Below, in pieces: positions 24,959 to 31,599 of a stretch of DNA of 64,000 bases. The DNA is taken from contig JABLXH010000012.1 in assembly GCA_013178155.1 (NCBI GenBank), forward strand, positions 1-64,000. Direction: 5' to 3'. A program made the position numbers and the translations under genes. The notes beneath the pieces are model-generated. The model worked only from the letters and a program-made list of their open reading frames with translations, did no database searches and was not told where the DNA came from. Every line of letters begins with the position of its first letter. Positions within the stretch are counted from its first letter, which is position 1. This DNA comes from Armatimonadota bacterium (GTDB lineage Bacteria > Armatimonadota > Zipacnadia > Zipacnadales > UBA11051).

Positions 24959-27900
24959 TCACTTCATGCAACAAAGCTTGTACTTCTTGCCGCTGCCGCA
25001 AGGACACGGATCGTTGCGGCCTACCTTGGGCGCGGAGCGGGTGCCTGCCGCCGGTCCGGAGCCGATGCCCCCCGACCACTCCGTGGCCTGCTCGCGCAGG
25101 TCGCGCACGATAACCGCATCCTGCTCCACGCTTTCGGTGGCGCTGAATGCCTTCTGGGTCGTGCGCAGCGCGATCTGCGCCAGGAGGTGCTCAAACAGCT
25201 CGGAGGCCTCCTTCTGGTATTCGATGAGTGGGTCGCGCTGGGCGTGTCCACGCAGATGGATACCATCCCGCAACTCGTCCATGTTCAGCAGGTGCTGCAT
25301 CCAGCTCTTGTCCACCGACGACAGGAGCCAGTAGCGCTCGAGATGGCGGAACTCGCGGTGGCCGATAGTGTTTTCGCCGGGTCGGGGCTCTTCATCAAGC
25401 AGCGCAATGAACCCGGAGCGCAGGTCCGTCGCCGCCAGTTCGCGCGCCCGACTGATGGCCAGGCCCATCAGCGCTACCGGCGCCTGCTTCTCCAGGGCCT
25501 GCACCAGGCCCACCACGTCCACGCTGACACCGTCTCTACGGTCTTTCGTCAGCGCTGCCTCCGCGACCGCCTGCGCTTGCCTGATCAGCTCGGCGCTCCG
25601 ATTGGCCACTGCTTGCTCGGTCTCGACGTCTGCCTTGCGCTTGCCGGCTTCGGCCTCGCGCTCGTTCAGCCGCGCCACGACCGCCGAGGCCGCTGCTTCG
25701 ACCTCAGCGACCAGCCGGTCGGGCTCCACCGAGTCGAGGGCGTCAACGGCAAGCCGCGACAGCATATCGTGCAAGTGGCCGTGCAGGTACTCCAGCATGC
25801 CCAGGAAGTCTATCTCCGCCAGCGGCTTGCCGACCGGTGCGAAGTGGCGCAGAGCCGTCTCGATCTCCAGCTCAATGCGCAGTCGCTCGCGGCCCACATA
25901 GACCTCGCGAACCAGCCGTCGGACCTCATCGTGAAGGTCCGGGCGCGGAATGGCCAGTAGCCCTTCATGCCCGAGATCATGGGCGACACCCTCATACTCG
26001 TCGTCCAGACTGCGTACCAGGTCAGCGAGTCGCCAGGTGTTCCTGGGTTGGTCGGCGGGGCAGTGCTCAGAAAGCAGTTTGGCGACGGTCCGTTTCACCT
26101 CGTCCTGCAGCATCTCGCGGGCAGTTTCCTGGTCCACGTTCCGTCGCAGCGTCCCGTGTGGGATGGTCTTCTCGCGCAGGTAGGCCGCCAGGTCCTCATC
26201 GGCCTGAGCCATCGCCTCCAGGTCGCGCACCGCCAGAGCCACAGCGATACCGCTGCCAGACGACCGGCGGCGGACCTTTCGCCTCGCTTCATCCTCGGGC
26301 GGAGTGGAGAACACTCGCACCAGTTCGCGGTAGAGCCCCTCCAGGTCCCAGTCGTCAGGGTTACGTACCTGGCTGGCATAGGTCTCCAGAATGTTTTCGG
26401 CGGTCGTGTCTATCATGCGCAGGATGACGCTCTGGACGTTCTCGCCATCCAGCACTCGGCGCCGCTGGGCATAGATCACCGAGCGCTGGCGGTTCATGAC
26501 GTTGTCGTATTCCAGGGTGTGCTTGCGGATGCCGAAGTTGCGAGTCTCGACCTTCTCCTGGGCGCGTTCGATGGCCCGGCTGACCATCCGCGTCTCGATG
26601 GCCTCCTCCTCAGGCCACGAGTTCAGGAAGGCGCCAAACCGGTCGGGACCGAAGAGCTGCATGAGCTCGTCTTCCAGCGAGACGAAGAACCGGGAGCTTC
26701 CCGGGTCGCCCTGGCGGCCCGAACGACCACGGAGCTGGTCGTCAATGCGGCGGCTCTCATGCCGCTCGGTGCCGATGACGTGCAGTCCACCGCACTTCTT
26801 AACATACTCGTAGCGTTCAGGGAAGAAGTTCTGGCCCTTGGCCGGGTTGCGGCCGCCGAGGATGATGTCCACGCCGCGCCCGGCCATGTTCGTGGCAATC
26901 GTCACCATGCCCGGCTCGCCCGCCCGCGCGATGATCATGCCTTCCTGCTCATGGCGCTTGGCGTTGAGAACGTTAAGCTTGCTGTCATGGTTCTCATCAC
27001 CTGGCCTCAGGCCATCCGCGATGAGAGCCGCCAGTCGCTGCCGCAGGACCTCGTTCGTTGCGCCGGAGTCAGTGTTGTCAGCCAGACCAATGATCTCCAG
27101 GAAGGCGTCCAGGTTGGTCGGATCCTGCAGGTCCTCAGGCACGCCCAGGACGGCCACGATATCGCCCAACGTCGCTTGCGGCTGGTCGTCGCTGCCCTTC
27201 CCACGGCGACGTCCCTTGGCGGCGGGAGCGGCAGCCGACCGGCGCTTCAGGTGGCGAGCCTGGTCCACCAGTTGCGCGATCGGCTGGCGGAGGGTACGCA
27301 GGTAGTTCTCCCGATCATCCTTGCTGAGCTCCTTGCCGCCCCTGTGGATCCGGTGCAGAAGGATCTGGACCAGGATGTGGGTCTGCAGCCAGGTGTGCTC
27401 CAGCCGCATAGCCAGGTGCTCGGAGACCTCCACCGAGCGGGTTCCCACCAGGACTGGCTGATCGCGCAGATGGCAGTTTATGATCTCGTTGATAATGCCC
27501 CGGTACTTGGCTTCCGCGGTCTTAAAGACCGTGTCGGGGTAGTCCTTGCGAATGACAGGCCGGTTTGTGGGTACCTGAGTGACGCGGCAACCGTAGGTCT
27601 TGGTGAACTCCTGCTCCTCGGTCTTGGCGGTGCCGGTCATGCCCGCCAGCTTCTTGTAGAGCTTGAAGAAGTTCTGGTAAGTGATGCTGGCGACGGTCTG
27701 GCGCACCCGGGGAGCAAACACGCGCTCCTTGGCCTCGATGGCCTGATGGAGGCCGTCGGAGTAGCGTCGGCCCGGCTGGAGATGCCCGGTGAACTCGTCC
27801 ACGATGACCACTTCGCCGTTCATGACGACGTACTCGTCATCGCGGTCGTAGAGCTTGTGGGCCTTCAGGGCGTTGTCCACGAGCTGGGCGATCTCAATGT

Positions 27901-28783
27901 TCTCGGGGTCCACCAGTGACCCCTCAAGGTGCAGCTCCCGCTCCACGAACTCCTGGCCCGCCTCGGTCAGGGCGGCCTGGTGGTCCTTCTTGTCCCAGGT
28001 GTAGAGGGGCTCGTCCTCGGTGTGGGCGCGCAGCAGCTTGCGTACCAGGTCGTCGGCCCGACGGTAGTTCTGGGCCTCCTGCTCGGTTTCTCCGGAGATA
28101 ATCAGCGGCGTGCGGGCCTCATCAATGAGGATGCTGTCGGCCTCGTCCACGATGGCGTAGTACAGCTCCCGCTGGCGCAGATGAGCCGGGTTGACGGTCA
28201 TGTTGTCCCGCAGGTAATCAAAGCCCAGCTCGCTGTTCTCGACATAGGTGATGTCCCGGGCGTACATGGCCCGGCGTTCGCTGTCACTCATGGAGTGCTG
28301 AATGTAGCCCACCGTCAGCCCGAGGAACTCAAAGATCTGCCCCATCCACTGGGCCTGCCAGCGCACCAGGAAGTCGTTGGTGGTTACCAGATGAACGCCG
28401 CGCCCCGGCAAGGCGTTAGCATAGAGTGCCAGGGTGGCCGTCAGGGTCTTGCCCTCACCCGTCTTCATCTCGGCGATCTTGCCGTCATGCAGGATCATCC
28501 CGCCAATGAGCTGGACGTCATAGTGGCGCTCACCCAGCACCCGCCGCGCCGCTTCGCGACACACGGCGAAGGTCTCGTGGAGCATGTCCTCGAGGTCCTC
28601 GCCCCGAGCCAGGCGCTGGCGGAACTCGACGGTCTTGGCGGCCAGCTCCTCGTCTGACAGCGCCTGCATCTGGGGTTCCAGGGCCGTTATCTCGGCCGCC
28701 CGCCGGCGGTAGCGCGCGATCTCGCGGGCGTTGGGATCAACGATGTTCTTGACTGCGGCAAGGGGTGCGACCATAGACAGCAA
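24959..28783 (-). CDS. secA: SecA preprotein translocase ATPase, enlarged
   Basis: The motor that drives unfolded proteins through SecYEG. Motifs: IGGMILHDGKIAEMKTGEGKT (Walker A, about 106-113), VDEADSILIDEARTPLIISG (DEAD box), MTGTAKTEEQEF, and NMAGRGVDIILGG in the second nucleotide-binding domain. The C-terminus is the metal-binding SEC-C tail RNDPCPCGSGKKYKLCCMK. At up to 1274 residues it exceeds the usual 800-950. About 140 residues (463-601) are inserted between GTRSVEVSEHLAMRLE and NVLNAKRHEQE, where most SecAs have about ten, and the helical region is also long. Start is TTG 28783 or, more likely, ATG 28774. Confidence 0.95.
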   Translation of the reverse strand: MLSMVAPLAAVKNIVDPNAREIARYRRRAAEITALEPQMQALSDEELAAKTVEFRQRLARGEDLEDMLHETFAVCREAARRVLGERHYDVQLIGGMILHDGKIAEMKTGEGKTLTATLALYANALPGRGVHLVTTNDFLVRWQAQWMGQIFEFLGLTVGYIQHSMSDSERRAMYARDITYVENSELGFDYLRDNMTVNPAHLRQRELYYAIVDEADSILIDEARTPLIISGETEQEAQNYRRADDLVRKLLRAHTEDEPLYTWDKKDHQAALTEAGQEFVERELHLEGSLVDPENIEIAQLVDNALKAHKLYDRDDEYVVMNGEVVIVDEFTGHLQPGRRYSDGLHQAIEAKERVFAPRVRQTVASITYQNFFKLYKKLAGMTGTAKTEEQEFTKTYGCRVTQVPTNRPVIRKDYPDTVFKTAEAKYRGIINEIINCHLRDQPVLVGTRSVEVSEHLAMRLEHTWLQTHILVQILLHRIHRGGKELSKDDRENYLRTLRQPIAQLVDQARHLKRRSAAAPAAKGRRRGKGSDDQPQATLGDIVAVLGVPEDLQDPTNLDAFLEIIGLADNTDSGATNEVLRQRLAALIADGLRPGDENHDSKLNVLNAKRHEQEGMIIARAGEPGMVTIATNMAGRGVDIILGGRNPAKGQNFFPERYEYVKKCGGLHVIGTERHESRRIDDQLRGRSGRQGDPGSSRFFVSLEDELMQLFGPDRFGAFLNSWPEEEAIETRMVSRAIERAQEKVETRNFGIRKHTLEYDNVMNRQRSVIYAQRRRVLDGENVQSVILRMIDTTAENILETYASQVRNPDDWDLEGLYRELVRVFSTPPEDEARRKVRRRSSGSGIAVALAVRDLEAMAQADEDLAAYLREKTIPHGTLRRNVDQETAREMLQDEVKRTVAKLLSEHCPADQPRNTWRLADLVRSLDDEYEGVAHDLGHEGLLAIPRPDLHDEVRRLVREVYVGRERLRIELEIETALRHFAPVGKPLAEIDFLGMLEYLHGHLHDMLSRLAVDALDSVEPDRLVAEVEAAASAVVARLNEREAEAGKRKADVETEQAVANRSAELIRQAQAVAEAALTKDRRDGVSVDVVGLVQALEKQAPVALMGLAISRARELAATDLRSGFIALLDEEPRPGENTIGHREFRHLERYWLLSSVDKSWMQHLLNMDELRDGIHLRGHAQRDPLIEYQKEASELFEHLLAQIALRTTQKAFSATESVEQDAVIVRDLREQATEWSGGIGSGPAAGTRSAPKVGRNDPCPCGSGKKYKLCCMK

Positions 28784-30641: not shown

Positions 30642-30678
30642 TGGCGCCCCGGAATCGACGGCGGGCCACCGATTTCCC

Positions 30679-30707
30679 TTAACAACCATGCCCCTTTGGA
30701 CTATAAT
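30679..30707 (+). promoter_or_regulatory. Near-consensus promoter of the structured leader
   Basis: TTAACA (30679-30684), 17-base spacer, TATAAT (30702-30707). This is the best sigma-70-type promoter in the window. Expected start near 30714. No good coding frame begins within the following 340 bases. Confidence 0.8.
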
Positions 30708-30713
30708 ACTCAA

Positions 30714-31004
30714 AAGCGCGTTACGCGCCGCCCTTCGGGGCCATTCTATGTTGCCGATTACTCTGATGAAGACCTGCACGGCGAGCATGAGCCGACAGTG
30801 TGGCTGCGCCAGTCTGAGGTTGGACGCCAGCCTCCACACATGCCTGCTCATGGATACTCATGCTACTCGCGTGGTCATTAACCGTGACCACCGCGAGACC
30901 TGCTCGCCGGCGGCTCCTCCTACGGAGCGTCCCCCGGGATAGACTAGTCAGCAATCCGAACGGGAAATGGCCACGAGCAGGCAATGCCAGCTCGTGGCTT
31001 TTTC
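30714..31004 (+). ncRNA. Structured leader RNA/attenuator upstream of sigma-factor gene
   Basis: About 290 bases between the promoter and an intrinsic terminator, without a convincing coding frame. Perfect or near-perfect helices are: 30716-20/24-28; a UUCG tetraloop hairpin 30730-30741; 30816-23/30827-34 (8 bp), enclosed by CATGAGC 30786-92 with GCTCATG 30846-52; a 12-bp helix 30866-77/30885-97 with one bulged C; and 30913-17/30924-28. CCTGCTCG at 30899-30906 is exactly complementary to CGAGCAGG at 30974-30981, which overlaps the terminator's 5' arm, so it can act as antiterminator. I find no motifs of cobalamin, TPP, glycine, SAM or T-box RNAs, nor of tmRNA, RNase P RNA or SRP RNA. Confidence 0.65.
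30970..31003 (+). terminator. Intrinsic terminator ending the leader RNA
   Basis: Nine-bp perfect stem GCCACGAGC (30970-30978) and GCTCGTGGC (30990-30998), then TTTTT. It lies 53 bases before the sigma-factor ATG, so it must be read through for that gene to be expressed from the 30679 promoter. Confidence 0.88.
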
Positions 31005-31056
31005 GTTTTGTCGGTCTGGTCGCCATTCTGTCGTGACGCCGGTAGGAGGAGTTCCG

Positions 31057-31599
31057 ATGAAGTCGCTGATCAGCAAGGCACAGCAAGGCTGTCCCCAGGC
31101 GCGCGCGCAACTGGCCGCCGCTCTCCGCCCGCGCCTGTGCAGCATGGCGAGGTACTACTCTCGCCGCGGCAACCTGGAGTACGAGGACCTGCTGCAGGAG
31201 GCCTGGTGTGCGGTCTTTGAGGCGTTACCGGAGACCAAGCTGCATATCGGCGAACCGGAGCAGTTCCTCCTGCGACGAGCCCGCTGGGCGGTGCTGGACT
31301 ACCTCAAGTGGTCTCTGCGCCGCCAGATGGCCCCGCTGGACGAGACCTTTGCCGGCGCCAGCACCGGCTCCCCGGCGGGCGAGGTGGACCTCCGCGTGAC
31401 GCTGGGCGACGTGGCCGAGGAACTCTCCCCGGTCCAGCGGCAGGTGATGGAGATGCTGATGGCTGGCGATAGCTGCACCAGCGCGGCTGACAAGCTGGGG
31501 TGCACCACGGCCAACGTGTCCTACCACCTGGCACAGGTCCGCCGGGCCGTGGACAAGGCCTTCCGCGAGGCCCCGCGATACGAGCGGGTACCGGCCTGA
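31057..31599 (+). CDS. Sigma-70 family (ECF-like) RNA polymerase sigma factor
   Basis: A 180-residue protein with sigma region 2 (ARYYSRRGNLEYEDLLQEAW, the core-binding and -10-recognition helices) and region 4 (LSPVQRQVMEMLMAGDS, then the helix-turn-helix SAADKLGCTTANVSYHLAQV). Region 3 is absent, as in ECF factors. The ATG at 31057 has AGGAGGA six bases upstream; the open frame extends to 30967 through the terminator, which is not coding. No anti-sigma gene is adjacent. Expression is probably controlled by the attenuator-like leader directly upstream. Regulon unknown. Confidence 0.82.
   Translation: MKSLISKAQQGCPQARAQLAAALRPRLCSMARYYSRRGNLEYEDLLQEAWCAVFEALPETKLHIGEPEQFLLRRARWAVLDYLKWSLRRQMAPLDETFAGASTGSPAGEVDLRVTLGDVAEELSPVQRQVMEMLMAGDSCTSAADKLGCTTANVSYHLAQVRRAVDKAFREAPRYERVPA

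Follow-up and report, generated by a model that had tools for sequence, protein, structure and literature searches.

Organization of the sigma factor locus

The window analysed here, a stretch of 64,000 nucleotides, is part of a 5.5 Mb Armatimonadota genome and carries the gene of an ECF-like sigma factor, preceded by a promoter, a leader containing an upstream open reading frame (uORF) and an intrinsic terminator (Table 1). When the sequence was re-checked, the promoter TTAACA-17-TATAAT, the terminator, the repeats and the sigma factor ATG (31057) were all found where a preliminary description of this DNA had placed them, and the same was true of the individual motifs CCTGCTC (30843–30849), CCTGCTCG (30899–30906), CGAGCAGG (30974–30981) and CATGAGC (30786–30792). 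The terminator consists of GGCCACGAGC..GCTCGTGGC followed by a T-run, with its end near 31004; it is missed by a simple terminator scan, because its loop is longer than 8, and was detected with a custom hairpin scan.

Table 1. Features of the sigma factor locus, in window positions.
Feature	Position	Strand	Basis	Description
Promoter	30677–30707	+	local form of the phylum-wide CTTTAGCA-N16-CGATA	CCTTAACA-N16-CTATAAT; spacing exactly 16
Predicted transcription start	30714	+	promoter geometry alone	about 7 nt past the -10
UUCG hairpin	30730–30741	+	sequence	holds GGGG 30737–30740, weak Shine-Dalgarno-like for ATG 30748
uORF	30748–30942	+	open frame and positional counterparts in relatives	64 codons; alternative start ATG 30766 (58 codons); stop TAG 30940–30942
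Element 1	30779–30792	+	partition-function folding	CGGCGAGC 30779–30786 pairs with 30902–30909; CATGAGC 30786–30792 with 30846–30852
Element 2a	30841–30849	+	partition-function folding	TGCCTGCTC; 9 bp with 30975–30983
Long hairpin	30866–30897	+	folding	CTCGCGTGGTCA..GTGACCACCGCGAG, within the uORF
Element 2b	30899–30906	+	complementarity	CCTGCTCG; 8 bp with 30974–30981; about 40 nt ahead of the uORF stop, as in relatives
Intrinsic terminator	30969–31009	+	hairpin scan	element 3, 5' arm (antiterminator target 30974–30983); element 4, 3' arm 30990–30998; T-run
Shine-Dalgarno of sigma gene	31044–31050	+	sequence	AGGAGGA
ECF-like sigma factor gene	31057–31599	+	Pfam	180 aa; Sigma70_r2 and GerE-like HTH

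The sigma factor matches the NCBIfam model TIGR02937 with 45.7 bits (cut-off 42.9), as do all 19 of the aligned orthologues, and its relatives of solved structure are weak matches to WhiG and ECF sigma factors (E ~1e-6). Orthologues occur in 21 of 61 relatives and, counting a few matches that are partial or weak, in 67 of 291 Armatimonadota genomes; the 53 loci from named genomes lie nearly all in Armatimonadota, among them the cultured species Chthonomonas calidirosea. An anti-sigma gene adjoining the gene of an ECF sigma factor is common, not universal. Among 61 loci we found neither a conserved operon partner nor a conserved adjacent anti-sigma gene, and only the sigma gene itself was widely common, indicating that it moves on its own. 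Upstream of the orthologues, the order of the parts is kept: the promoter comes first, then a leader containing a short ORF, then, at many loci, a terminator, and finally the sigma gene.

The leader is strongly folded and contains a uORF

The leader of about 290 nt had been described as strongly folded, and this was borne out by a free energy of -133 kcal/mol for 30714–31010, compared with -105.7 ± 4.5 for dinucleotide shuffles (z = -6.03, 0 of 200). A match to a known RNA family, which the preliminary description had proposed looking for with Rfam, was not obtained: no Rfam 15 covariance model reached its gathering score on the leader, with noise alone at permissive thresholds. Likewise, neither ARAGORN nor Rfam matched a stand-alone RNA (6S, tmRNA, tRNA) at the locus, and we found no paralogous leaders within the same genome. 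In blastn comparisons with orthologous leaders, mostly the promoter and the terminator region were recovered; overall, leader sequence and fold are kept only at the promoter, the uORF, element 2 and the terminator.

The preliminary description was mistaken in finding no good coding frame in the leader, because the 64-codon uORF is open throughout and corresponds in position to the uORFs of relatives, which are led by a Shine-Dalgarno sequence. Nearly all orthologous leaders contain a uORF of 15–62 codons, mostly with an AAGGAGG-type Shine-Dalgarno; that of the window is weak, as it also is in its nearest relative (G001), and in relatives of the order G-rich stretches precede the uORF start. 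The stop codon lies 26 nt ahead of the terminator in the window, and 24–31 nt across the eight order members examined. Between close pairs of leaders, indels are in frame and the frame is kept at pN/pS values of 0.2–1.2. Given these values and the divergence of the peptides, we rejected the uORF as a conserved protein. A kept frame with a weakly constrained peptide is compatible instead with a leader read for ribosome traffic more than for its product, and the frame in the window is probably the sensor of an attenuator. We infer that it is translated, although its weak Shine-Dalgarno makes this the least secure point for the window.

In uORFs of deep-branching families (L117, L118, L119, L126, L127, L136, L153 and L154) the C-terminal part frequently contains SPR[S/F/T/P]G or PRFG, encoded with synonymous variation (CGT/CGC/AGA for Arg), and could be an arrest motif. 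The uORF might thus encode a nascent-chain arrest peptide or a secreted signal, responding to something specific to the peptide, such as secretion status, rather than to general translation stress. This recurrent ending with its synonymous variation is what such a peptide would leave; nevertheless, the motif coincides in part with element 2 and does not occur in the order of the window, where the endings are CSPAAP, CSWTAPP and NSWQV, the peptides diverge fast, and the association with hflX (see below) points to ribosome stress, so that we regard this explanation as rather unlikely.

The preliminary description had offered an attenuator or an undescribed riboswitch. In the second case, the leader would fold into an aptamer that binds a small molecule, and the ORF would be there by accident. 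The strong and complex fold (z = -6), with long helices between promoter and terminator, would suit an aptamer, although the lack of an Rfam match, the restriction of conservation to the four parts listed above, the recurrence of uORFs with a Shine-Dalgarno and the position of element 2, which is set relative to the uORF stop, make a ligand-binding riboswitch very improbable. Hence, the attenuator is retained, as its architecture travels with the sigma gene and the alternative pairing of the terminator 5' arm is seen repeatedly, with covariation, whereas the riboswitch is not needed because a uORF is present and the geometry of the switch is tied to its stop codon.

Element 2 and element 3 covary between families

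Conservation in relatives, on which the preliminary description had made its reading depend, was found across the phylum. The intrinsic terminator between promoter and sigma gene is kept in the eight order members and in several other families, and was not detected in all; indeed, many leaders have no recognised terminator. For instance, in L117, L118, L120 and other leaders of families f45, f28 and f29, the promoter and the uORF are conserved and no intrinsic terminator was recognised between uORF and sigma gene, which makes another mode of control possible there.

In several families, a segment 20–48 nt ahead of the uORF stop (element 2) is complementary to the terminator region. Choosing element 2 by unrestricted best complementarity was uninformative in many families, and the choice was restricted to the stretch ahead of the uORF stop. 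When the complementarity of each element 2 with its own partner was compared with that for swapped partners, 13 of 48 cases reached p<=0.05 and 20 of 48 reached p<=0.1, corresponding to binomial probabilities of 4e-7 and 1e-8 if treated as independent, which species are not. Support came from families f1, f6, f11, f12, f17 and part of f45; no matching element 2 was found with this test in families f22, f28, f29 and f37, and the element 2 of the window, taken alone, was not significant (p = 0.12).

The preliminary description had also named covariation of the alternative pairing as potential support, and this was found across families and is weak inside the order of the window. In Chthonomonadaceae, five of eight pairs show compensatory changes, with 13 double changes, and the covariation score is 0.475 versus 0.183 ± 0.042 in shuffles (0 of 500), to be read with the fact that the helices had been chosen for complementarity, the swapped-partner control being the stronger test. 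At the same positions, members of this family carry unrelated yet matching sequences: CTGTTCACC:GGTGAACAG, TCTCCACCG:CGGTGGAGA, GATCCACC:GGTGGATC and AGCGCCGG:CCGGCGCT. In the order of the window, a CTCGTGG-type element 2 pairs with element 3, which is alternatively paired with element 4, and the 3:4 helix is 97% paired over seven order members. There, formal covariation amounts to one compensated pair with one double change: in L124/G001, CTCGTGG becomes CTCGCGG in elements 2 and 4 and CCACGAG becomes CCGCGAG in element 3.

Ribosome position and the predicted choice between the pairings

The mutually exclusive pairings claimed for the leader are present, and both folding and comparison indicate that the antiterminator excludes the terminator. 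We modelled the effect of a ribosome placed on the uORF by constrained thermodynamic folding, with the window RNA ended just before element 4. Without a ribosome, the two pairings of element 1 have probabilities of 0.99 and 0.72 in partition-function folding, and both copies of element 2 are sequestered by them; the probability of the antiterminator is then about 0, as it is with a ribosome near the uORF stop. It rises to 0.57–0.98 at most of the sampled codons 1–17, codon 5 being the exception, because an early ribosome covers element 1, by which both copies of element 2 are otherwise sequestered. A second, weaker zone appears at codons 41 and 49–55, positions at which the ribosome releases element 2a.

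For seven of nine relatives, the antiterminator keeps a probability of about 0.8–1.0 with an early ribosome and drops to about 0 with a ribosome over element 2; in most of them, the 2:3 pairing is the default and is lost only with a ribosome standing on element 2. The pattern of G011 resembles that of the window, and G020 fits the predicted dependence on ribosome position poorly. Taken together, the models suggest that, in all variants, a ribosome stalled early would either leave the antiterminator available or make it so. In the completed leader at equilibrium, the terminator is more stable in every state, and the switch would thus have to be kinetic.

This dominance of the terminator in the full leader, along with the families in which no element 2 was detectable, is also what would be expected of a constitutive partial terminator that lowers basal expression of the sigma gene or ends a small RNA, with no regulated antitermination. 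We find this quite unlikely, since the complementary elements 2 and 3 covary from one family to the next, with the distance to the uORF stop held constant, and a passive terminator needs no such complementarity.

A regulated attenuator would operate as follows. Transcription would begin at an element that the sigma factor probably recognises itself, and ribosomes would translate the short uORF of the leader. During normal translation, and in the window also when no ribosome is present, element 2 would be masked or sequestered, element 3 would pair with element 4 and RNA polymerase would stop at the terminator. An early stall in the uORF, caused by an antibiotic or by other translation stress, would allow element 2 to pair with element 3 before element 4 is made, so that the terminator would fail and the sigma gene would be transcribed. 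The sigma factor may then activate its own gene and a small regulon, which in several families would comprise hflX and other genes of ribosome-rescue, RNA-repair and efflux type. We infer the direction of the switch from thermodynamic folding; the stress sensed is likewise a prediction.

A promoter element shared by the sigma genes and hflX

The promoter of the window (TTAACA, 30679–30684; TATAAT, 30702–30707) matches 11 of the 12 positions of the sigma-70 consensus, and sigma-70-like sites are expected 0.3 times per 2.5 kb. Its earlier description as a near-consensus promoter therefore holds for the sequence match, and is incomplete in that this sequence locally represents an element which is found across the phylum and is not of the sigma-70 type. 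This element, CTTTAGCA-N16-CGATA, lies upstream of about 45 orthologous sigma genes in the same register and with invariant spacing, which suggests that the sigma-70 look of the window promoter is a local variant of it. In the form CTTADCA-N16-CTATAMT, the promoter at 30677 is the sole exact match in the entire window genome.

Across the 291 genomes, there are 74 exact sites for CTTTAGCA-N16-CGATA, versus 25 for a reversed control pattern, and 19 of the 74 are just upstream of the sigma gene. The other sites are concentrated in genomes with the sigma gene (21 of 67, versus 13 of 224 without it; Fisher 2e-7). Because single exact sites can be due to chance, hflX, which encodes a ribosome-splitting GTPase, was tested across genomes. 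The element precedes hflX in 13 of 30 sigma-bearing genomes from seven families and in none of 28 sigma-less genomes of related families (Fisher 5e-5), with three of the 13 belonging to one genus, so that the effective number is lower. The hflX site of the window genome matches weakly and could also be accounted for by a sigma-70 promoter; likewise, the hflX promoters in the order of the window are in the right register and could equally be sigma-70 promoters. RqcH was rejected as a general member of the regulon, the element being present in two of 27 cases, both from one genus, and was kept as a negative control.

The presence of the element at the sigma gene suggests autoregulation, which is less certain in the order of the window because the promoter there resembles sigma-70. 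Alternatively, another sigma factor might transcribe the sigma gene, in which case there would be no self-regulation and both the promoter element and hflX would belong to that factor. This resemblance in the window's order speaks for such an arrangement, while the concentration of the element in genomes with this sigma gene, and its absence from the hflX promoters of related sigma-less genomes, speak against it; we consider it a minor possibility.

Among the genes behind single sites are those for HflX, RqcH, RtcB, RsgA, Thg1, a Mef/Tap-like MFS protein, GNAT acetyltransferases and a RIO-type kinase. In G011, a site is followed by the gene of a protein that looks like Eis, which a Pfam scan assigned to no family. 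In L236 (G046), L235 (G243) and L206 (G068), the sigma gene is closely followed by a second site of the element, which precedes an RsgA-like GTPase in G046 and a strong Shine-Dalgarno in G243 and G068. In L216 (G076), L223 (G099) and L201 (G057), sites are found 10–11 nt ahead of the start codons of, respectively, RtcB, RqcH and a Thg1-like protein, which suggests near-leaderless transcripts. G075 contains four exact sites and no detected sigma orthologue; this genome is 82% complete and possibly lacks the corresponding contig.

Comparison with known attenuators and sigma factors

On comparative sequence evidence, we consider it likely that 30677–31599 forms a self-contained unit regulating an alternative ECF-like sigma factor, through uORF-coupled transcription attenuation and probably also through the factor's control of its own promoter. 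The closest parallel is the whiB7/wblC system of actinobacteria, in which translation of a uORF leads to termination and disturbed translation to an antiterminator (PMC11550727; PMC7157823), and which shares with the present locus a regulator gene preceded by a uORF and an intrinsic terminator and, probably, autoregulation of the promoter. Nevertheless, the regulator is there a WhiB iron-sulphur protein and here an ECF-like sigma factor, in another phylum, with another promoter element and with no common sequence; when we tested the regulator of the window as a WhiB-like iron-sulphur protein, the product was a sigma factor and not a member of WhiB7/WblC. The WblC regulon includes hflX, eis/GNAT acetyltransferases, and ABC and MFS transporters (PMC7157823); the present one resembles it in hflX, for which alone there is support, the other targets being single instances.

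In Listeria, hflXr (lmo0762), whose product is of the HflX type, is preceded by rli80, with a uORF and alternative terminator and antiterminator, and is induced by ribosome-stalling antibiotics (PMC6310831). There the attenuator acts directly on hflXr and has an RLR arrest motif; the present one, which has no sequence in common with it and is not a member of that system either, would act on the gene of a sigma factor by which hflX appears to be driven. The exclusive pairings (1:2, 2:3 and 3:4) coupled to the position of a ribosome on a leader ORF are also those of amino-acid operon leaders of the trp/his type, from which the present leaders differ in having no conserved run of regulatory codons and in targeting a regulator gene instead of a biosynthetic operon.

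Alternative sigma factors are usually restrained by anti-sigma proteins. The factor described here is like those ECF sigma factors in its two domains, its TIGR02937 superfamily and its apparent autoregulation, and unlike them in having no conserved adjacent anti-sigma gene, its control appearing to reside in the transcript leader. If ribosomes stalling on a leader ORF gate its expression, sigma control would here take a different route, apparently convergent with WhiB7. In the open-access literature, which does not cover subscription journals, we found no paper that connects an ECF sigma factor to uORF attenuation, and none of relevance on Armatimonadetes. What would be new here is that the target is an ECF-like sigma factor lacking a conserved anti-sigma gene next to it, that the system is spread across the phylum and that it is linked to ribosome rescue.

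We see about even chances that Armatimonadota possess a phylum-specific translation-stress sigma factor, which a uORF attenuator and positive autoregulation control in place of an anti-sigma factor, and which drives ribosome-rescue and RNA-repair genes (hflX and, in single genomes, those for RqcH, RtcB, RsgA and a Thg1-like protein). If so, it would be a counterpart of WhiB7/WblC that evolved independently. An uncharacterised sigma family, from a phylum in which hardly any molecular biology has been done, would thereby gain its first function and a predicted promoter code, together with a prediction of the genes that answer translation inhibitors in Armatimonadota.

The window also contains, on the minus strand at 24959–28783, the gene of a SecA homologue of 1274 aa with all SecA domains and a SEC-C motif in Pfam; SecA proteins are usually shorter than this.
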